Part shown: piece after piece, positions 1,271-22,335 of the stretch
Position numbering within the stretch: position 1 is the first letter of the stretch
Layout of the letters: every line of letters begins with the position of its first letter
DNA from: Candidatus Wolfebacteria bacterium RIFCSPLOWO2_01_FULL_45_19
GTDB taxonomy: Bacteria > Patescibacteriota > Minisyncoccia > UBA6257 > GWB1-45-9
Direction of reading: 5' to 3'
DNA length: 36,525 nucleotides
NCBI GenBank assembly: GCA_001793855.1
Contig: MGIR01000001.1
Location: forward strand, 181,384-217,908
Notes under the pieces: generated by a model
Database searches by the model: none
Seen by the model: the letters and a program-made list of their open reading frames with translations, nothing else
Told to the model about the DNA's origin: nothing
Translations under genes and position numbers: made by a program

Positions 1271-2989
1271 ATGAAATTTAAAGGATGTGTTGAAATTCAG
1301 TGGGATAAATGTCGCGAAAAAGATGTTCCCAGAATAAAGAATATTCTGCCCATTTTTGAGTGGTTTTCCAAAATTGCCAAAGTAAGAATCATTGTTAACG
1401 TCCCGCGCGGTTATGCCAAGAAAATCAAAAGCGAAGACGACAAAACCGTGCACATTCACGTTAACGCCTGGCCAAAAGCCCGCGCAATCAATCACATTTT
1501 TCATTCCGGCACGCTTTTCTGGACTAAAAGTCCCAAAAATCTGCGAATGTTTGAACCGATAAATCCCGTTGCTTCATTCGGAATATTCGTAAACGCTCCC
1601 GAGCCGCGAGCAACCGCATTCGTAAGCGAAAAAAATATATGGCTTATGTTTGACTGCCTTAACGACGGCTGGAAAAAAGAAAATCTCGCAAAAATTCTGT
1701 TCTTTACGCTGTATCTTGCGATGCAACACGCGGTTAACCTGGATGGACGCCTTATCGCGCGTCTTGTCAGAAAAAATTTTTTGGAACAGAGAAACGAAAT
1801 TGGCCAAAAACTTCGTTTATTTCTTGAAGAAAATTACATCGGCGGGATAAAAGAAGTTTCAAATACTTTGGCTAAAAGCGCCGAGAATATTGAAAAAGAA
1901 AAGAAGGAGTTTTTAAAACTGCTCAATGAAGAAATTGACATTGAAACCATGCTTGAATACGCAAAATCAGGCACGGACAGAAACGAACTTGCCAAAAGCT
2001 TCCATCTTATTCTAAACCTGGACGGCGTGGAAACCGTTGAAGTCGACAGCGCCGGATTGATAATCGTCAACACAAAGGTCATTTTTAAAACTCCAAACGC
2101 GGAAGGACTTGAGTCAACTCATTTTGACATCGGTAAATTTGAAATCAGAATTGACCCGAGATTAAAGGATCGTTCTGGCATTCACTTCCATCAGGATAGA
2201 TACGCCGGAGAATATTATCACGGCTATGCCAAAGAAAAAGAAACATGCTTCGGACAATCTGTGTCAGACGGACTTAATCACATAATGAACAAGCACATGC
2301 AGGACTTGAACATTGTTGCGATAGTGGAACTATGTTTATCCTTTCTGAGAAAAGAAAGTAATATTCCACAGAAGCGCTTTCTGGAGAATGTGCCGGCTCC
2401 GGAAAACTACGCCTCGCCGGAAGCCATGGATGAGGCAAAAAAAAGATTTATTGAAGCCATGGAAAATGCCTTTTACAATCGGAAAACTCTTGTCCTGCAA
2501 TCCGAACTGGATTCTCTTAGAAAAGAAATAACCGATAAACAAGCGGTTCTTATGGGTATGCGCCGCGAATTTAAAGATACGCGAGATTTTCACCAAAAGC
2601 TTGGAAAAGAACTGCGAATTGCCGAACACAAAGCCGAAAAAGAACTTGATAAACTCGCGAACGATCGCGATGTGGTATGTGTTGAAAAAAACGGCCCATT
2701 GATTGAAATTTATCTTTCCGTTCCAAAATTGTTTGACGCGTGCGTTATCATGAAACCAAACGGTCACCCGCGCCTGTTGTGTTCATTGTCATCGGATAAA
2801 TCCCGCAAAGGCGTTTTTGACCCAAGTCTCAGCCAAAGTATAGAACTTAGTGACGCGCAAATGATAAAACTGCAGCGCGACGGCAAAATTCACGAATTTA
2901 TTTCTTTGGTTAAGCAGTTTCTGACGGAACTGGCGGCAAAGCAAGAAAATGAAAGGAGACGGCGCGATGCGGAAAATATCTACAACTGA
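1271..2989 (+). CDS. 572-aa uncharacterised protein with candidate E2-like (UBC-fold) region and a coiled-coil segment
   Basis: Long ORF with SD-like agaaggaga. Region FEIRIDPRLKDRSGIHFHQ...KETCFGQSVSDGLNHIMNKHMQDLNIVAIVELCLSFL resembles a His-rich strand / Cys / amphipathic helix layout of bacterial E2-like proteins. Neighbours are E1-, JAMM- and Ubl-like. Confidence 0.55.
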   Translation: MKFKGCVEIQWDKCREKDVPRIKNILPIFEWFSKIAKVRIIVNVPRGYAKKIKSEDDKTVHIHVNAWPKARAINHIFHSGTLFWTKSPKNLRMFEPINPVASFGIFVNAPEPRATAFVSEKNIWLMFDCLNDGWKKENLAKILFFTLYLAMQHAVNLDGRLIARLVRKNFLEQRNEIGQKLRLFLEENYIGGIKEVSNTLAKSAENIEKEKKEFLKLLNEEIDIETMLEYAKSGTDRNELAKSFHLILNLDGVETVEVDSAGLIIVNTKVIFKTPNAEGLESTHFDIGKFEIRIDPRLKDRSGIHFHQDRYAGEYYHGYAKEKETCFGQSVSDGLNHIMNKHMQDLNIVAIVELCLSFLRKESNIPQKRFLENVPAPENYASPEAMDEAKKRFIEAMENAFYNRKTLVLQSELDSLRKEITDKQAVLMGMRREFKDTRDFHQKLGKELRIAEHKAEKELDKLANDRDVVCVEKNGPLIEIYLSVPKLFDACVIMKPNGHPRLLCSLSSDKSRKGVFDPSLSQSIELSDAQMIKLQRDGKIHEFISLVKQFLTELAAKQENERRRRDAENIYN

Positions 2990-3617
2990 TATAAAGTTTC
3001 TGTTTGAGCCCGAAACTATGGCGGATCTTTTACTTGCGGTCCACCATAACCCAGTTGAAATTTCAGGGCTGGCCAAAGTTCAAAAAGAAAACGGTCTGTT
3101 ATATGTCGTCAGGAGTGAACCGGAAATTTTTGAACAAGAATGCGGAATGTCATTTACGGACTTTGATATTAAGACATACCATTCGTGGCATTCAAGAATG
3201 CTAAAAGAAAATTACCTTCAAGAAATTTCCGAAATGCGGCTGTGGTGGCACAGCCATGTCTGGGGCAACGTTTATTTCAGCGGCACAGATAAAGATACAA
3301 TCAGTTCCTTCGGAAGAGGATTTGAAGAATGGTGGGCTTCGCTGGTTTTAAACAAATACGGCGAGTTCTGCCTCTGGCTCAATACAAAACCGGAATGGGA
3401 ATATCCGTTCCAAATTGATGAAATCGGGTTCACGCGCGAAATTGAAATGGAAGAGTTTCGGAGTATTATGGTTGAACGCAGCCATGGCATAAAAACCGCT
3501 ATAGAGAAAAAAGTGCGCGTAAAACAACTGGCGCTTTACGAGTCCATAATTTCCGGACTTTTCAAGCCAAAGAAAGAACCGTTTTGGGACAATGAGCCGC
3601 ATAGGAGGCGGTTATGA
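2967..3617 (+). CDS. JAB/MPN (JAMM) family metalloprotease, candidate deubiquitinase-like / Ubl-processing enzyme
   Basis: WWHSHVWGNVYFSGTD fits JAMM HxH-x7-SxxD. ATG at 2967 is preceded by aaaggaga SD; ORF-track start is 2949. Confidence 0.8.
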   Translation: MRKISTTDIKFLFEPETMADLLLAVHHNPVEISGLAKVQKENGLLYVVRSEPEIFEQECGMSFTDFDIKTYHSWHSRMLKENYLQEISEMRLWWHSHVWGNVYFSGTDKDTISSFGRGFEEWWASLVLNKYGEFCLWLNTKPEWEYPFQIDEIGFTREIEMEEFRSIMVERSHGIKTAIEKKVRVKQLALYESIISGLFKPKKEPFWDNEPHRRRL

Positions 3618-4378
3618 ACACAAAAGAACTTACCATAATCGGCGCCGGAAGTTTGGGAAGCTCTTTTCTCTCCGCGGGATTAATTTGCGGAAAAATGTCG
3701 GAAACGCTCGGATTTCGACGCATCTACATATACGACTTTGACAAAGTTGAGCCGCGCAATCTTCTAAACCAAATGTACAGACCGAAAGACGTCGGCGAAT
3801 CCAAGATATCGGCAATTGAAAACATCATTCAGCAATTCAGCGAATCAAAAATAATCCCAAAAAACGAGAAGGTCGGGCCGAAAAGCAATTTAAGCGGAGT
3901 AATCGTCACGCTTGTGGACAATATGGACGCGCGCAGGCAAATTTTTGAACTCTGTCGCTATCGCGCTGACATTCCGTATTACGTTGATGCGAGAACGGGC
4001 CTCAACGAGGCATACGTTGTCGCTTTTGACCCTCGCGACCCGGATTGTGTTGAAAGATATGAAAGAACGCTGTATCCTCAATCTGAGGCAGTGCAAGCGC
4101 CTTGCGCCGATTCCAGAAGCATACCAACGCTGTGGAGCGTTGCCGGCGTAGTTCAGGAATGCTTGCGCCTATTCAAAAAAAAGCCGCAAAACGCCGCTTT
4201 GGCCGATAAGGCGACCGCATTTATCGCGGCGACAATCGGCAAAGTTCTTGTTCGTTTTAAAACCCAAAAAGTGCGCGATACCGAAGAATTTCTTGAAACA
4301 ATTATAATTTTTAACGACCTTCCGTACTTGAAAACGCAAAAACTTTATCTGCATACCCAATCGCTTAAAAAAACTTGA
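3614..4378 (+). CDS. ThiF/MoeB/E1-like ATP-dependent adenylating enzyme
   Basis: N-terminal IIGAGSLGSSF Rossmann GxGxxG, IYIYDFDKVEPRNLLNQM...GESK as in the ThiF/E1 family, late Cys in AVQAPCADSRSIPTLWSVAGVV. Overlaps the JAMM gene by 4 nt; aggagg SD. Confidence 0.82.
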   Translation: MNTKELTIIGAGSLGSSFLSAGLICGKMSETLGFRRIYIYDFDKVEPRNLLNQMYRPKDVGESKISAIENIIQQFSESKIIPKNEKVGPKSNLSGVIVTLVDNMDARRQIFELCRYRADIPYYVDARTGLNEAYVVAFDPRDPDCVERYERTLYPQSEAVQAPCADSRSIPTLWSVAGVVQECLRLFKKKPQNAALADKATAFIAATIGKVLVRFKTQKVRDTEEFLETIIIFNDLPYLKTQKLYLHTQSLKKT

Positions 4379-4395
4379 TCTGAAAGAGGTGCGAC

Positions 4396-4710
4396 ATGAA
4401 AGAGAAGCAGAACGAAGACCAAACGCAAGAACAAGAAGCGAAGAACGAACTTGAACACACTCTCGGAATAATGGCGACTTGGTTTAAGGCAAAACTGCCC
4501 GCCGGAGCGCGACTTTCCGACTTGGTTCAAAAACTTAAAGAAGAAGCGACGGAGCGAGGACTTCATGATTTCAACATTCACGAATATCTAATGCGGCTTA
4601 ACGACGTTGACGTTGAATTTGACCAAAATGGAAAACTGAAAGAAGATCCGGTTTTGACCGAATCGTCCGTTTTATCGCTGGTGGTAAAAAAACTTACCGG
4701 CGGAAATTAA
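4396..4710 (+). CDS. Candidate ubiquitin-like (beta-grasp) modifier with C-terminal -LTGGN
   Basis: 104 aa. C-terminal EDPVLTESSVLSLVVKKLTGGN has the 'DxxL..gs.l.lv.k..GG' pattern of ThiS/MoaD/Ub-like folds. Lies directly after the E1- and JAMM-like genes. Confidence 0.65.
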   Translation: MKEKQNEDQTQEQEAKNELEHTLGIMATWFKAKLPAGARLSDLVQKLKEEATERGLHDFNIHEYLMRLNDVDVEFDQNGKLKEDPVLTESSVLSLVVKKLTGGN

Positions 4711-4720
4711 ACAACATCAT

Positions 4721-4750
4721 CCCCCGTAAATTATCGGGGGATTTCTTTTT
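4721..4750 (+). terminator. Rho-independent terminator closing the Ubl-like gene set
   Basis: cccccg-taaattat-cggggg followed by atttcttttt; overlaps the convergent gatB 3' end. Confidence 0.7.
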
Positions 4751-16310: not shown

Positions 16311-17007
16311 TATAAATAACATCCTTCCTTTCCACAACAATCTTCCATCCGGCGCGCTTGGCATAACGATATAATTTCGAATTTGGATTGAAAGCAATCG
16401 GCTTGTCAACCATTTTAAGAAAGGCGATATCTGTTTCCGTATCCCCCACCCCGACTGAATTTCTTAACGTCAAGCCGTTTTTTTCAACTGCTCTTTTCAA
16501 AATTCTTGCTTTATCTCTTATCAATTCTGAATATAAAGTTCTTCCCGTGAAGCGCCTTTCCGACCCGACTTCATAAACCCAGCCATAAACTTTGTTAAAG
16601 CCAAGCTCTTTCGCAAAACTGTCAACTATTTCTTTAGGCGAATGAGAGATAGCAAGGAGATAATAATTTCTACGCCTTAATTCACCAATTAAATCGCGCG
16701 TATATCTATACACTCTTTTTTTGTGAAACGAAACGACTTTTTTCGCCACCTTCAAATATGTCTTCTTCGGAACTCCCTTAATGTGTTTTTCAAAAGCAAA
16801 AATAACGCGGTCTATAAAATCCCGGTAATTGCCTCTGCGGTGTAGCCACTTGCGATACGCATTAACATAAATGGAACGCACATTTGGCGGAAAAACGCCC
16901 TCGTTAACCAACGCTTCGGTTATTTCAATCAAAAAACTGGAACGAAAAATCGTCCCGTCAATGTCAAAAACAGCAACTTTTCTGAAAGTTCTTCCTTGCT
17001 TTTTCAT
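16303..17007 (-). CDS. HAD-superfamily hydrolase, SerB-like (HAD-IB)
   Basis: VAVFDIDGTIFRSSFLIEITEAL, LLAISHSPKEIVDSFAKELGF, VGVGDTETDIAFLKMV. Start moved from ORF-track 17064 to MKKQGR. Confidence 0.88.
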   Translation of the reverse strand: MKKQGRTFRKVAVFDIDGTIFRSSFLIEITEALVNEGVFPPNVRSIYVNAYRKWLHRRGNYRDFIDRVIFAFEKHIKGVPKKTYLKVAKKVVSFHKKRVYRYTRDLIGELRRRNYYLLAISHSPKEIVDSFAKELGFNKVYGWVYEVGSERRFTGRTLYSELIRDKARILKRAVEKNGLTLRNSVGVGDTETDIAFLKMVDKPIAFNPNSKLYRYAKRAGWKIVVERKDVIYKK

Positions 17008-17064
17008 ATAACAATGATACGGCAAATTGTGCTTTTTACCAATTTCAGCTATAATAATAAACAT

Positions 17065-18567
17065 ATGGCATCATTTATTCCATCTATTCCGTCAATTTTC
17101 GGCAAAAAAGCCGCGAAAATTCTGTTTATATCGCCAGAAGCCGCGCCGTTCGTTAAAGTAGGTGGCTTGGGCGAAGTAATGCGCGCCCTTCCCAAAGCTC
17201 TGCGCGAGCTCGGTTATGACGCGCGCGTTTTAACTCCAAAATACGCCTCAATGAACCTTGAGAACTTTCCTTTGACAAAAATATACGAAGGGCTTGAATT
17301 CGTTCCGGAAGAACTAGATCCGCACGGTCTATTCGTCTGCAACGTCCTTCAAAACGAAAGCGAAGAAGATGTAGTCGCATACTTTCTGGAAAATATGGAG
17401 TATTTTGAAAAACGCGCGAATGTTTACGGTTACGCGGACGACACCGTGCGATGGGTTCTCCTATGCAAGGCCGCGCTTGAATTCATAAAACAATCCGATT
17501 GGGTGCCGGATATAATTGTGACCAATGACTGGCAAACCGGCTTCCTTCCGGATTTTCTCAAGCACTCGTACCATCAGCACCGCAAACTCTCCGGAATCAA
17601 AACCATGTTCATAATCCACAATCTCAATTTTCAGGGAATGTTCGACCACCGATTTCTTTCGGAAACGGATTACGACTCGGGCCAAGCGGCGATTCCGGAA
17701 TTAGGCGATCCGAATATTTTAAAACTGAACGGCATGCGCCGCGGCATTATGTGGTCGGACCTCATAGTAACCGTTTCGCCGACATACTCTAAAGAAATAT
17801 TAACTACGGACTTCGGAGAAGGATTAAACGAACTGTTGAAAGAAAAACGCTCCGTGCTTTTCGGCGTTTTAAATGGAATTGATTACGACATATATAATCC
17901 GCAAAAAGACAAACTTATACCGCATCCTTTCTCTTACAATAATTTGGAAAAAAGAGCGTTAAACAAAACGGCCCTGCAGGAAAAATTCAATCTTAAAGTT
18001 GACCCGAGAAAATTTGTAATCGGAATCGTCTCACGGATGGACGAACAAAAAGGATTTGAACTGATAATGCAAATATGCAATCCCCTTTTCGAAAATGTTG
18101 ATTTTCAAATGGTAGTCGTCGGCGGAGGCGACAATAAATACCGCCTTTTTTTCCAAGAAATGGAAAAAAAATATCCGGGGCGATTTGGCGGCCACTATTT
18201 CTACGATGAAATTCTGCCGCGCCTGGTTTTTGCCGGAGCTGACGCGATACTTGTGCCCTCGCGCTTTGAGCCGTCAGGATTAGTGCAAATGGAGGCGATG
18301 CGTTACGGCGCCATACCGATTGTCCGTCACGTAGGTGGCCTTGCCGACTCCGTGCGCGATTTTGATGGCGAACAAGGAGATGGATTCGTTTTTAACAATT
18401 ACGACCCATACGCGCTTCTTGTGGCAATAGTCAGAGCAAAAGAAACATTCAGCAACAAAAAAACTTGGACAACAATAGTAAGTCACTCCATGCAAAACGA
18501 TTTCTCGTGGAAAAAATCCGCGCAGGACTACGATAAACTATTTAACATACTACTTGATAAAAAATAA
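17065..18567 (+). CDS. glgA: Glycogen/starch synthase (GT5)
   Basis: ILFISPEAAPFVKVGGLGEVMRALPKALRELGYDARVLTPKY, NDWQTGFLPDFLK, PSRFEPSGLVQMEAMRYGAIPIVRHVGGLADSV. Confidence 0.93.
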   Translation: MASFIPSIPSIFGKKAAKILFISPEAAPFVKVGGLGEVMRALPKALRELGYDARVLTPKYASMNLENFPLTKIYEGLEFVPEELDPHGLFVCNVLQNESEEDVVAYFLENMEYFEKRANVYGYADDTVRWVLLCKAALEFIKQSDWVPDIIVTNDWQTGFLPDFLKHSYHQHRKLSGIKTMFIIHNLNFQGMFDHRFLSETDYDSGQAAIPELGDPNILKLNGMRRGIMWSDLIVTVSPTYSKEILTTDFGEGLNELLKEKRSVLFGVLNGIDYDIYNPQKDKLIPHPFSYNNLEKRALNKTALQEKFNLKVDPRKFVIGIVSRMDEQKGFELIMQICNPLFENVDFQMVVVGGGDNKYRLFFQEMEKKYPGRFGGHYFYDEILPRLVFAGADAILVPSRFEPSGLVQMEAMRYGAIPIVRHVGGLADSVRDFDGEQGDGFVFNNYDPYALLVAIVRAKETFSNKKTWTTIVSHSMQNDFSWKKSAQDYDKLFNILLDKK

Positions 18568-18569
18568 AT

Positions 18570-20060
18570 ATGTACTGGGCCAATTTTTTGCATATCTATC
18601 AGCCTATTGAGCAACAACCGGATATTTTAGAAGCCGTTGTCACGCAAAGCTACCGTCCGATTATAAACGGCTTAAAAAAGAACAAACGCGTTCGTCTTAC
18701 CCTCAACATAAACGGAGCGCTTTTGGAACTTTTCGACAAATACGGTTTCAGGGATTTAATAACAGACCTTCGCGATTTAGGCCGTGATGGCCGGATTGAA
18801 TTTACCGGGTCTGCCAAATATCACGCCCTCCTGCCGTTTCTTGAGGAAAAAGAAATGGTCCGGCAAATTGAAAACAATAACGAAACCGGAAAATTTTTTC
18901 TCGGCGAGGGATGGAAACCCACGGGTTTTTTCCCTCCGGAAATGGCTTATTCAAAAAAAATACTTCCCGTCGTTGAACATTTTGGATTTAAATGGATTAT
19001 TCTTGACGAAATCGCTTTCAATGGCAGAACGGAACAGGTTGATTATAAAAAAATTTATAAAATAGAAGGTTCCGGTCTTTATGCCATTTTCCGGGAGAGA
19101 CGACTTTCAAATCTCATAATGAGCGCTATGGTCAGGTCCGAAAAAAGCCTGCTTGAAACAATGAAAAGGGATTTGAATGGCGGCGGATATTTCGTTACGG
19201 GAATGGACGGCGAAACGTTCGGACATCACCGTCCGGGATTGGAAAATATGCTGTTTGAAATTTTTTCCTCAAAACATTTTAAATTGATAAAACTTTCCGA
19301 AATTTTTGACTTTTTCAAAGAAACGGAGCAAGTCGTTCCGGTTAAATCAACATGGGCTTCAAGCGAAGAAGATATGGAGCGAGGAATTCAATTTCTTTCA
19401 TGGTCTGATCCTGATAATATTATCCACAAATGGCAATGGGAACTGACCAATTTGACGCTGAAAGAACTCTACGCAATGCGTAAAAACGATCCGTCTTTCG
19501 CGGAAATAAGAAACAAAATGGATTCGGCGCTCGCCTCCGACCACTTTTGGTGGGCGTCAGCAAAACCATGGTGGAGCTTGGAAATGATTGAGGCGGGCGC
19601 CTATCGCCTGTTGAACGTTATACGCGGTATTCCGGGCGTTTCCGAAAGCAATCTTGAACGAGCCGGCAAACTTTATGAGGAAATTGTCTCCACGGCTTTT
19701 GAATGGAAACGCAGCGGAAAAATATATGAAATGATGATGGGAGAAAAACAACGGGTGAAAATTCCTTTTAAGGAACGGGCTTTGGAAAAAGGCGGCGGTG
19801 AAGCAGGGGTCTATCACGCGTTTTTAGATATGATGGAAAAACTTGAAAAAGAAGCTACGAAAATCGGCGAATACGAAAAGGCAATACTTTGGCGAGACGC
19901 GATACATAAAATAAAAAACAAGCAGGATATCTACGATGCCGTTCACGCGATTGACCTTTTGCGCCTGGAAATTCCTCATGAAGAAGTTGAAAAAATGCTG
20001 GATAAATACACCGAACGATACAAAAAAATTCGAGGCGGACAACCGGAACAGCGAGGATGA
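18570..20060 (+). CDS. Glycoside hydrolase family 57 protein
   Basis: MYWANFLHIYQPIEQQPDILEAVVTQSYRPIINGL, GWKPTGFFPPEMAYS, TGMDGETFGHHRPG. Confidence 0.88.
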   Translation: MYWANFLHIYQPIEQQPDILEAVVTQSYRPIINGLKKNKRVRLTLNINGALLELFDKYGFRDLITDLRDLGRDGRIEFTGSAKYHALLPFLEEKEMVRQIENNNETGKFFLGEGWKPTGFFPPEMAYSKKILPVVEHFGFKWIILDEIAFNGRTEQVDYKKIYKIEGSGLYAIFRERRLSNLIMSAMVRSEKSLLETMKRDLNGGGYFVTGMDGETFGHHRPGLENMLFEIFSSKHFKLIKLSEIFDFFKETEQVVPVKSTWASSEEDMERGIQFLSWSDPDNIIHKWQWELTNLTLKELYAMRKNDPSFAEIRNKMDSALASDHFWWASAKPWWSLEMIEAGAYRLLNVIRGIPGVSESNLERAGKLYEEIVSTAFEWKRSGKIYEMMMGEKQRVKIPFKERALEKGGGEAGVYHAFLDMMEKLEKEATKIGEYEKAILWRDAIHKIKNKQDIYDAVHAIDLLRLEIPHEEVEKMLDKYTERYKKIRGGQPEQRG

Positions 20061-20974
20061 GCATATTGAAGAATTTTAAAACCCTAACTAATCCGAAGGG
20101 GGTGGAAAAAATATTAAACGAGAACCGAAAATTTATCTGGGGCGAAAAAGAGCGCGCCCACGCCATGCGCGTTTCCATCACACAGTCGTATCGCGACACG
20201 CGCAGTTATAATCTTGCCGCCCGTTACGATTTTCGCTTAAAACCGTCGGCGGGCGCCAAAAAGAGGCATTCTATTTTCGCGCTCTCCCACTCAGACGGAC
20301 GGAAAAAATATGCTCACGCTATGAACGACATAATTTTCCGGCATTTTCTAGGCGCGCAAAAACAAATAACCGTGCCGCGTCCATATAAATATGTGGAACG
20401 GTATCGTTTGTTTCTTCTCGAATATATTAAAGGAAGTACGCTCGCGAGCATTCTGGTCAAAGAAAAAAGTCCGCGAACAAACCATCTTATTTCTTTAATG
20501 GACTGGTTGGCGCATCTTCATGGCGCGAAAGTTCATCCAAAAATTAAGCGACGTATTAATTTTTACCATCTGGAACATAATATAAAAGTTCTGAAAGAAA
20601 GAGGTCATAAAGACGCTCTCGCTTTTGAAAAAAAATTCAAGCGTATTAAAAAACAAATGAAACTATGGAGAAAATCGCATGGAACGACCGTCGTTCATGG
20701 GGATTTCAATCCTTCAAATGTTATTATAAAAGGAAACAGCATCGCGGTGGTGGATTTTGAAAACGTATATGTTGGCGATTATTTAATTGATGCCGCGAAT
20801 ATGCTTTCATACATAATAATGATATTGCGAGATACCGGAGCAAAAAAACAGTTTATGCGCCTCTATCAAGAAAACAGAGGCAAGCTCACCCCGTCGGAAA
20901 AAAGACGGTTTTCGTTATACGTTGATTATTTTTCTTTATTATTTAAAACACATCCTTTAGTATGGGGAAAATAA
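20057..20974 (+). CDS. APH-fold phosphotransferase (aminoglycoside phosphotransferase/kinase superfamily)
   Basis: TTVVHGDFNPSNVIIKGNSIAVVDFENVYVGDYLIDAANML catalytic loop and Mg-binding region. ATGA overlap with the GH57 gene. Confidence 0.82.
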   Translation: MSILKNFKTLTNPKGVEKILNENRKFIWGEKERAHAMRVSITQSYRDTRSYNLAARYDFRLKPSAGAKKRHSIFALSHSDGRKKYAHAMNDIIFRHFLGAQKQITVPRPYKYVERYRLFLLEYIKGSTLASILVKEKSPRTNHLISLMDWLAHLHGAKVHPKIKRRINFYHLEHNIKVLKERGHKDALAFEKKFKRIKKQMKLWRKSHGTTVVHGDFNPSNVIIKGNSIAVVDFENVYVGDYLIDAANMLSYIIMILRDTGAKKQFMRLYQENRGKLTPSEKRRFSLYVDYFSLLFKTHPLVWGK

Positions 20975-22335
20975 AGATTTTTATCGCCGCGGCGGAGGCG
21001 TCTCCGCTCGCCAAAGTCGGCGGGTTGGCCGACGTTATCGGCTCATTGCCAAAAACATTATCAAAGCTTGGAGTTCAAATTACGATTCTCCTGCCAAAAT
21101 ACAAAACTATTGACGAAAAAAAATTTAAACTGATTAAAACCAAAGAAACCGTTAAAGTCGCATTCGGCGGAAACACTGAGACGTTGCCGTTGTGGCGGAC
21201 AACTTTGCCGGACAGCAAAGTTCCGATAATTCTTTTTGAACATAAATCATGGATTAGTCGCGGTGGCATATATGCGACGCCAAGCGCGGAACCGAGCGGA
21301 CACGAATCCGAACTGCAACGTTTTGGAGTTTTTTCATCAGCGATAGCGGAATATGCGTCAAAAAACGGGGACTCTTCAACAATACTTCATTGCAACGATT
21401 GGCATGTCGCGCTTGCGATTCCGATTATGCGCGGTCTGCTCAGAAATAAAAAGGTTCACGCCCTTATTACAATCCACAATCTCGCTTACCAAGGAATATA
21501 TTCAGAAAAAATCGCGCTAAAAATACTCGGAAAGGATATTTTTTCAATTATTCCAAAACAAGCGAAAAACAAAGGCAATATAAATCTCTTTGCTTCCGGC
21601 ATACTAGCTTCTAATTGGACGTCAACGGTCAGCCCGACATACCGCGAAGAAATCTTAAAACCCGAAAATGGGGCGGGGCTTGATTGGGCGCTTCGCGCCA
21701 AAAAAAATAAATTCGTCGGTATTCTTAACGGTATTGATTACAAATCGTGGCCGCCGCAAAAACGCTTCAAAACTGAGAAAGCTTTCTTGTGCGGAATGGT
21801 TTCCAGAATCGCGGAACAAAAGGGGTTTGATATTCTTCTACCGGCAATGCTTGATGTTTTAAACAAAGACAAACGCATTAAATTCACGATTCTTGGAGTA
21901 GGAGAACCGCTTTACGTGGCCAAACTAAAAAAATATACTAAACAATTTGCTGGACGAGTAACATTTATAAATCGTTTTGACGAAGCCGCCGCTCAAAAAA
22001 TTTACGCGAATTCCGACGCATTTCTAATACCGTCTCGATTTGAACCCTCCGGCCTCGGACAAATGATTTCAATGCGGTACGGAACTTTGCCCATCGCGCG
22101 AGCTACCGGAGGATTAAAAGATACCATCAACAACTTGGAAGACGGATTTTTATTCGGTCCGTATAGCAGGCAAGCGCTTGCGGATTGCATATTGCGCGCG
22201 GCAAAATTGTTTTTTAATAATCCGAAAAAATGGAACGCTATGCGAAAAAACGCGGCAAGAAAAGATTTTTCATGGAAAAAATCCGCTCTGGAATACAAAA
22301 AGCTATTCAGCGAAATTCTCCAACACAAGAATTAA
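20962..22335 (+). CDS. glgA: Second, divergent glycogen/starch synthase (GT5)
   Basis: IFIAAAEASPLAKVGGLADVIGSLPKTLSKLGVQITILLPKYK, HCNDWHVALAI, PSRFEPSGLGQMISMRYGTLPIARATGGLKDTI. Confidence 0.92.
   Translation: MGKIKIFIAAAEASPLAKVGGLADVIGSLPKTLSKLGVQITILLPKYKTIDEKKFKLIKTKETVKVAFGGNTETLPLWRTTLPDSKVPIILFEHKSWISRGGIYATPSAEPSGHESELQRFGVFSSAIAEYASKNGDSSTILHCNDWHVALAIPIMRGLLRNKKVHALITIHNLAYQGIYSEKIALKILGKDIFSIIPKQAKNKGNINLFASGILASNWTSTVSPTYREEILKPENGAGLDWALRAKKNKFVGILNGIDYKSWPPQKRFKTEKAFLCGMVSRIAEQKGFDILLPAMLDVLNKDKRIKFTILGVGEPLYVAKLKKYTKQFAGRVTFINRFDEAAAQKIYANSDAFLIPSRFEPSGLGQMISMRYGTLPIARATGGLKDTINNLEDGFLFGPYSRQALADCILRAAKLFFNNPKKWNAMRKNAARKDFSWKKSALEYKKLFSEILQHKN

Follow-up and report, generated by a model that had tools for sequence, protein, structure and literature searches.

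Operons that combine genes for an E1-like adenylating enzyme, an E2-like conjugating enzyme, a JAB peptidase and a ubiquitin-like modifier (Ubl) were predicted in prokaryotes by Iyer, Burroughs and Aravind in 2006, who described types 6a-6e and regarded their links to protein stability (ClpS, SmpB) as tantalizing but uncertain (PMC1779556). In the BilABCD system, the JAMM enzyme trims the Ubl, and both the Ubl and the E1 have two domains (PMC11354881), while the FtsH ternary conflict systems include vWA, MoxR, a RING E3, an EAD1-Ubl-E2 fusion and a caspase-like effector (Kaur et al. 2020; PMC7159879). Here we describe a cluster in Candidatus Wolfebacteria bacterium RIFCSPLOWO2_01_FULL_45_19 (Patescibacteria), found in a 36,525-nucleotide stretch of assembly GCA_001793855.1 (contig MGIR01000001.1, positions 181,384 to 217,908; hereafter, the window), in which genes for an E2-like protein (E2L), a JAB/JAMM metallopeptidase, an E1 and a Ubl follow genes for a ClpP-type serine protease and an AAA+ unfoldase (AAA). 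The conjugation module belongs to the known E1/E2/JAB/Ubl kind; what is new about it is the AAA and ClpP with which it is paired, an arrangement that is conserved. Given the parts present, conjugation by the E1 and E2L, with JAB as the processing and removing enzyme, is a well-supported prediction. We consider it probable that this module has an ATP-dependent protease of its own, with AAA passing tagged substrates to ClpP, a coupling that is suggested by the conserved gene order.

The cluster has in common with the types of Iyer et al. separate genes for E1, JAB, an E2-like protein and a Ubl with a C-terminal glycine, type 6d being the closest, but the descriptions of types 6a-6e include neither ClpP nor AAA, and the cluster has both. 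With Bil and Bub it shares the four-part logic of Ubl, E2, JAMM and E1. It differs from Bil in its single-domain Ubl, its minimal unfused E1 of 254 amino acids (aa), an E2 core set within a long coiled protein and the adjoining AAA and ClpP genes; the cluster contains neither a multi-domain BilA-type Ubl nor an E1 of the BilD type, in which an inactive adenylation domain accompanies an active one, and PADLOC gave no match for its Ubl or JAB. The nearest published combination of AAA and Ubl that we found is that of the FtsH ternary systems, which likewise join an FtsH-type AAA to a full Ubl-conjugation set and a JAB, although ClpP is not among the parts listed (PMC7159879). No vWA, MoxR, RING E3 or EAD1 was recognised beside the complete clusters, whose neighbours were judged by eye and partly profile-scanned, and no caspase-like effector was seen at the cluster. 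Nor does the cluster qualify as a PRTRC system, the E1 scoring 45.3 bits with TIGR03736 (PRTRC) against a cut-off of 144.75, with no ParB-like gene recognised in the open reading frames (ORFs) around the cluster.

The Pup-proteasome and archaeal SAMP/Urm1-proteasome pathways resemble the proposed one in that a protein tag delivers substrates to a chambered protease powered by an AAA. Pup is not a beta-grasp protein and uses PafA, and the archaeal tags serve the 20S proteasome, whereas the present cluster ties E1, an E2-like protein and JAB to ClpP. Phage Ubl/E2-like/JAB/E1 cassettes (IMG/VR, crAss-like and Flavobacterium phages) share adjacent JAB and E1 genes, a small GG-ending Ubl and an E2-like protein with a PH...CxG motif, but no AAA or ClpP homologue of the cluster kind was found beside them. 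On many IMG/VR contigs (L013-L057, L005) JAB stands beside E1, and an E2-like protein and a small protein ending in GG are often encoded there as well; the Flavobacterium phage relatives are annotated as thiamine biosynthesis protein. A second type of Ubl/E2L/JAB/E1 module was detected in the same class by an E1-seeded search (L061, L114, L116, L117 and L059), with no AAA or ClpP beside it; its E2L proteins have hydrophobic N-terminal stretches, several being apparently membrane-anchored. In the open-access literature, to which the search was directed (subscription journals and bioRxiv lay outside it), no ClpP-linked E1/E2/JAB/Ubl cluster was found.

Gene content and conservation of the cluster

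The genes of the window that belong to the cluster are the following.

2-1162, + strand: C-terminal part of an AAA+ unfoldase of the classic clade (Pfam AAA, 6.6e-30)
1271-2989, + strand: E2L (E2-like protein), 572 aa
1964-2386, + strand: E2-like core of E2L (residues 232-372), predicted as a helix, four strands, a catalytic loop bearing H317 and Cys326 (codon 2246-2248), and helices
2967-3617, + strand: JAB/JAMM metallopeptidase, 216 aa, counted from the ATG with AAAGGAGA before it
3614-4378, + strand: E1/ThiF-type adenylating enzyme, 254 aa, overlapping the JAB stop by 4 bases
4396-4710, + strand: Ubl modifier, 104 aa, with the C-terminus LVVKKLTGGN

The original prediction, made from the letters of the window, was of a conjugation operon of four tightly spaced plus-strand genes next to an AAA+ ATPase. 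All four ORFs (E2L, JAB, E1 and Ubl) were found and had been read correctly, with the 4-base overlap at 3614/3617, and the motifs quoted for JAMM, the E1/ThiF loop and the Ubl end (HSHVWGNVYFSGTD, GAGSLGS, DFDKVEPRNLLNQ and LVVKKLTGGN) are all present; for JAB, the ORF listing gives an earlier ATG at 2949. AAA had been treated as a whole gene and ClpP had been missed. The AAA ORF in the window, read from position 14, is only the C-terminal two thirds: beyond an assembly gap of 10 N the reading frame continues upstream, to a start outside the window at L007:8651 (G000:C1:180650). Directly upstream of it, also outside the window, lies the ClpP gene (L007:7890-8654 = G000:C1:179889-180653; 254 aa), which overlaps the AAA gene by four bases. 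The proposal that the locus is a further variant of E1/E2/JAB/Ubl systems, with an adjoining AAA and a large E2-like protein, is supported and is extended by ClpP.

The order ClpP-AAA-E2L-JAB-E1-Ubl is complete in three genomes, namely the window genome, Candidatus Yanofskybacteria RIFCSPHIGHO2_01_FULL_44_24 (G183 = L063) and Parcubacteria RIFCSPLOWO2_01_FULL_48_18 (G803 = L062), the latter two belonging to families other than that of the window genome. G803 also carries the second module type described above. Another genome, G906, encodes ClpP-AAA-[88-aa ORF]-E2L-JAB up to the contig end, and G933, G037 and G098 contain the five genes AAA-E2L-JAB-E1-Ubl. In G933, a Lon_C fragment (PF05362, 1.4e-8) occupies the contig start (L083:2-547), 150 bases before the AAA gene. 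Given that the same genes occur in the same order in other families of the Parcubacteria class, the cluster is not a product of chance, and the co-location of homologues on which the original prediction depended was seen in each cluster that was found. In all four ClpP-AAA pairs, the two reading frames overlap or abut. AAA adjoins the conjugation genes in 7/7 clusters, a count that is not free of ascertainment because five of the seven were first found via the AAA or E2L profile.

The ClpP profile matched Ubl-containing clusters only and gave no match at the loci of more distant AAA paralogues, which in this class have no ClpP or Ubl genes alongside. These distant paralogues (L088-L096) are often near ORFs beginning MGGGGSYYDRDV, a separate conserved neighbourhood without Ubl genes. 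An AAA match in G557, from another class of the phylum, was rejected as a cluster member, there being no Ubl genes at that locus. The clusters are rare and scattered: the JAB profile detected 2/244 genomes of the order, and the AAA profile 1/28 and 1/8 genomes in two families. When viruses were scanned with the AAA and JAB profiles, none was found to carry the cluster as a whole, and the E1 had no matches when searched against plasmids. Such patchiness suggests an accessory function, for example in stress-related protein turnover or defence.

Components of the conjugation module

The E1 matched ThiF in Pfam (1.5e-16), and its profile matched the NEDD8 E1 and UBA5 in the PDB. It consists of one 254-aa adenylation domain without rhodanese or E2 fusion, has the ATP loop GAGSLGS and, from the alignment, an invariant Cys164 in PCA (codon 4103-4105). 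The JAB motif comprises E31 and H95-x-H97-x7-S105-x2-D108 (motif codons 3249-3290), and HxH-x7-S-x2-D is intact in all seven JAB orthologues; the protein matched Prok-JAB (0.039), and the top PDB entry was an archaeal Rpn11 homologue (E 0.023). A JAB match in crAss-like phages was weak (E 0.09) and is not relied upon.

That the 104-aa protein is a Ubl was borne out by its AlphaFold model, which has the beta-grasp order and a disordered N-terminus (predicted local distance difference test score, pLDDT, 84.6), and by the Foldseek matches of this model to ubiquitin-like chains, including the bacterial E1-E2-Ubl complex 8tyz. The family profile, phage members included, also matches MoaD (7e-6), SAMP2 and Urm1. 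All six cluster Ubls contain Gly-Gly with 0 to 6 residues after it; the window Ubl ends in LTGG-N, one residue past Gly-Gly. Neither the Ubl nor E2L matched a credible family in Pfam, NCBIfam, PHROGs or PADLOC.

E2L is mostly helical, with an N-terminal alpha/beta region, long helices, a central UBC-like core and a C-terminal alpha/beta region. The AlphaFold topology of the core has the order of an E2, and the Cys and the Gly two residues on do not vary among the 23 cellular and phage E2L sequences compared, which were excised around that motif. Cellular and phage-type cores are homologous by hhalign (P 7e-15), and their joint profile matched canonical E2s, represented by three sequences entered by hand and not drawn from a database, with P 2.1e-4 and with the catalytic Cys and the HPN motif aligned; of 100 column-shuffled E2 profiles none was as good, the best giving 0.036. 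A PDB search with the core profile returned nothing real, and a phage search with E2L gave no match. L004 (E 1.9e-4 to E2L) was rejected as a relative, its likeness being judged a probable coiled-coil similarity. The centre of the 572-aa protein has a predicted E2-like topology and the invariant Cys, and the other regions of the protein probably bind substrate.

Proposed coupling to proteolysis and alternative explanations

The AAA protein (full-length orthologues, 655 and 629 aa) falls in the FtsH/PAN/Cdc48 clade and contains Walker A GAPGTGKT, a pore-loop-like MWVGQSERN, Walker B DEID and the Arg-finger region LLREGRFD. At the depth examined, the suggestion of a dead AAA domain in its N-terminal half found no support. 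The cluster ClpP is divergent, matching PF00574 with 8e-29 and PDB entries to 8e-22. Since a separate canonical ClpP is encoded on contig C7 of the window genome, the cluster ClpP is a specialised second copy. In the proposed pathway, JAB would trim off the residue that follows Gly-Gly in the precursor of the Ubl; the ThiF-type E1, judging from its conserved motifs, would adenylate the Ubl C-terminus and load the Ubl on Cys164, from which it would be transferred to Cys326 of the E2L core and joined to a target protein; JAB could also take it off again; and AAA, as the conserved gene order suggests, may engage the conjugates and feed them to the divergent ClpP. Three candidate signals in the window bear on how these genes may be transcribed.

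1178-1196, + strand, with a T-run to 1203: terminator-like hairpin between AAA and E2L (hairpin scan)
1204-1232, + strand: weak extended -10 promoter-like site, with TTGCTA (1204-1209), 17 nt, TATAAG (1227-1232) and TG before the -10
4719-4742, no strand assigned: terminator-like hairpin after the Ubl gene, common to the convergent gatB (hairpin scan)

A hairpin with T-rich sequence after it lies at the same post-AAA position in G183, G803, G906, G933 and G037, and none was found in the 11-bp AAA-E2L gap of G098. Shuffled sequence gives terminator-like hits about as often as the window does, so it is the position of the hairpins and their recurrence that carry the argument. Given the hairpin after the AAA gene, [ClpP-AAA] and [E2L-JAB-E1-Ubl] are probably two neighbouring co-directional units, not one operon. 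The terminator earlier placed near 4721 agrees with the last hairpin of the list; as for the promoter proposed at 1204-1232, its sequence elements are there, but the site is weak and absent from the list of a stricter scan rule.

Several observations count against the proposed delivery of tagged proteins to ClpP, or against the reading of its parts. ClpP adjoins the cluster in only 4/7 cases, with one Lon_C fragment at a contig start in addition, and no peptidase gene adjoins the G037 or G098 cluster in the sequence examined there. The terminator-like hairpin parts ClpP-AAA from the conjugation genes in 6/7 clusters, and the same class contains related modules that lack AAA and ClpP. A ClpP-docking loop was not identified in AAA, and classic-clade AAAs are not known to partner ClpP. 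The ClpP Ser and His are retained, while the catalytic Asp is replaced by Glu in 4/4, as read by aligning them with an E. coli ClpP sequence that was entered by hand and not drawn from a database. With regard to E2L, the seven cellular cores alone gave P 0.7 with canonical E2s, which is not significant, so the significance of the E2 match needs the phage sequences. Topology, invariant Cys and profile match favour the predicted E2-like nature of the 572-aa protein, but Foldseek on the whole model was uninformative, matching the long helices only and leaving the E2 core unrecognised. A further point of this kind is a pair of adjacent proteasome-family (PF00227) genes elsewhere in the window genome (G000:C6:2478-3964, L118; 7.8e-22 and a weak 7e-4). 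Together with the FtsH/PAN/Cdc48 placement of AAA, this pair would allow AAA to serve a proteasome-like partner there, ClpP being incidental. We find that improbable, as the AAA C-termini (RTRTTI, KPKLS, STRIV and FSSGK) lack the HbYX motif, the ClpP and AAA genes abut or overlap in four genomes, and no match to the Pup ligase (PafA) family was found in the window genome.

Dedicated anti-phage (abortive) defence, with phage proteins sensed or marked through conjugation and ClpP-AAA acting as effector, involves the same mechanism as delivery to ClpP and differs from it in purpose alone. The patchy distribution (2/244, 1/28 and 1/8 genomes) and the weak similarity of AAA to IetA are in keeping with such a purpose, but the neighbours of the clusters viewed closely are housekeeping genes and not defence islands, and no regulator or toxin gene was recognised in the cluster; we see it as possible but less likely than not. 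Rather unlikely, in our judgement, is that conjugation serves signalling and not degradation, for example in reversible modification or regulation of AAA or ClpP themselves, as Cap2/Cap3 act on the cyclase of CBASS (cyclic-oligonucleotide-based anti-phage signalling system): the two units look separately transcribed and AAA-less modules of the same type occur in the class and in phages, but ClpP beside AAA in 4/7 clusters, and a Lon-type fragment in another, are easier to reconcile with degradation than with a fixed regulatory target. The profiles of the E1 and the Ubl do resemble ThiF and MoaD, yet it seems very improbable that ThiF and JAMM serve here in a ThiS/MoaD/CysO-like pathway of the sulfur-carrier or cofactor type, given that E2L, AAA and ClpP genes play no part in such pathways, that no second match to the cluster E1 was found in the window genome, and that the expected small-molecule synthesis genes are absent from the neighbourhood.

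Genomic surroundings and significance

The clusters that were viewed closely lie among the housekeeping genes gatB, infB and holA. Those of G183, G933 and G098 have ClpB/AAA_2-like genes at their flanks, and the G037 cluster has an ORF of similar kind there (L006:7295-8761, L083:6236-7603, L085:1164-3948 and L084:10059-11459); several of these ORFs apparently lack a good Walker A. Elsewhere in the window (16996-22335), two apparent glycogen/starch synthases surround a GH57-like protein, as judged from translations read by eye only.

CBASS Cap2/Cap3, Bil and Bub, the bacterial systems related to the ubiquitin cascade, have been tied mainly to defence and regulation. Here, several families of bacteria with very small genomes have conjugation genes next to those for a dedicated unfoldase and ClpP. 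Our opinion is evenly balanced on whether, in Patescibacteria, a beta-grasp modifier attached by E1 and E2-like enzymes and edited by a JAMM enzyme sends proteins to an AAA-ClpP protease (or, in one relative, a possible Lon-type protease), and there is a reasonable chance that this is the first bacterial ubiquitin-type tag feeding a ClpP protease. The cluster makes protease feeding by a bacterial E1/E2/Ubl system testable with six small genes. If the coupling is true, the combination of tag, unfoldase and chambered protease can be built on ClpP, which would give these bacteria an analogue of the ubiquitin-proteasome system.

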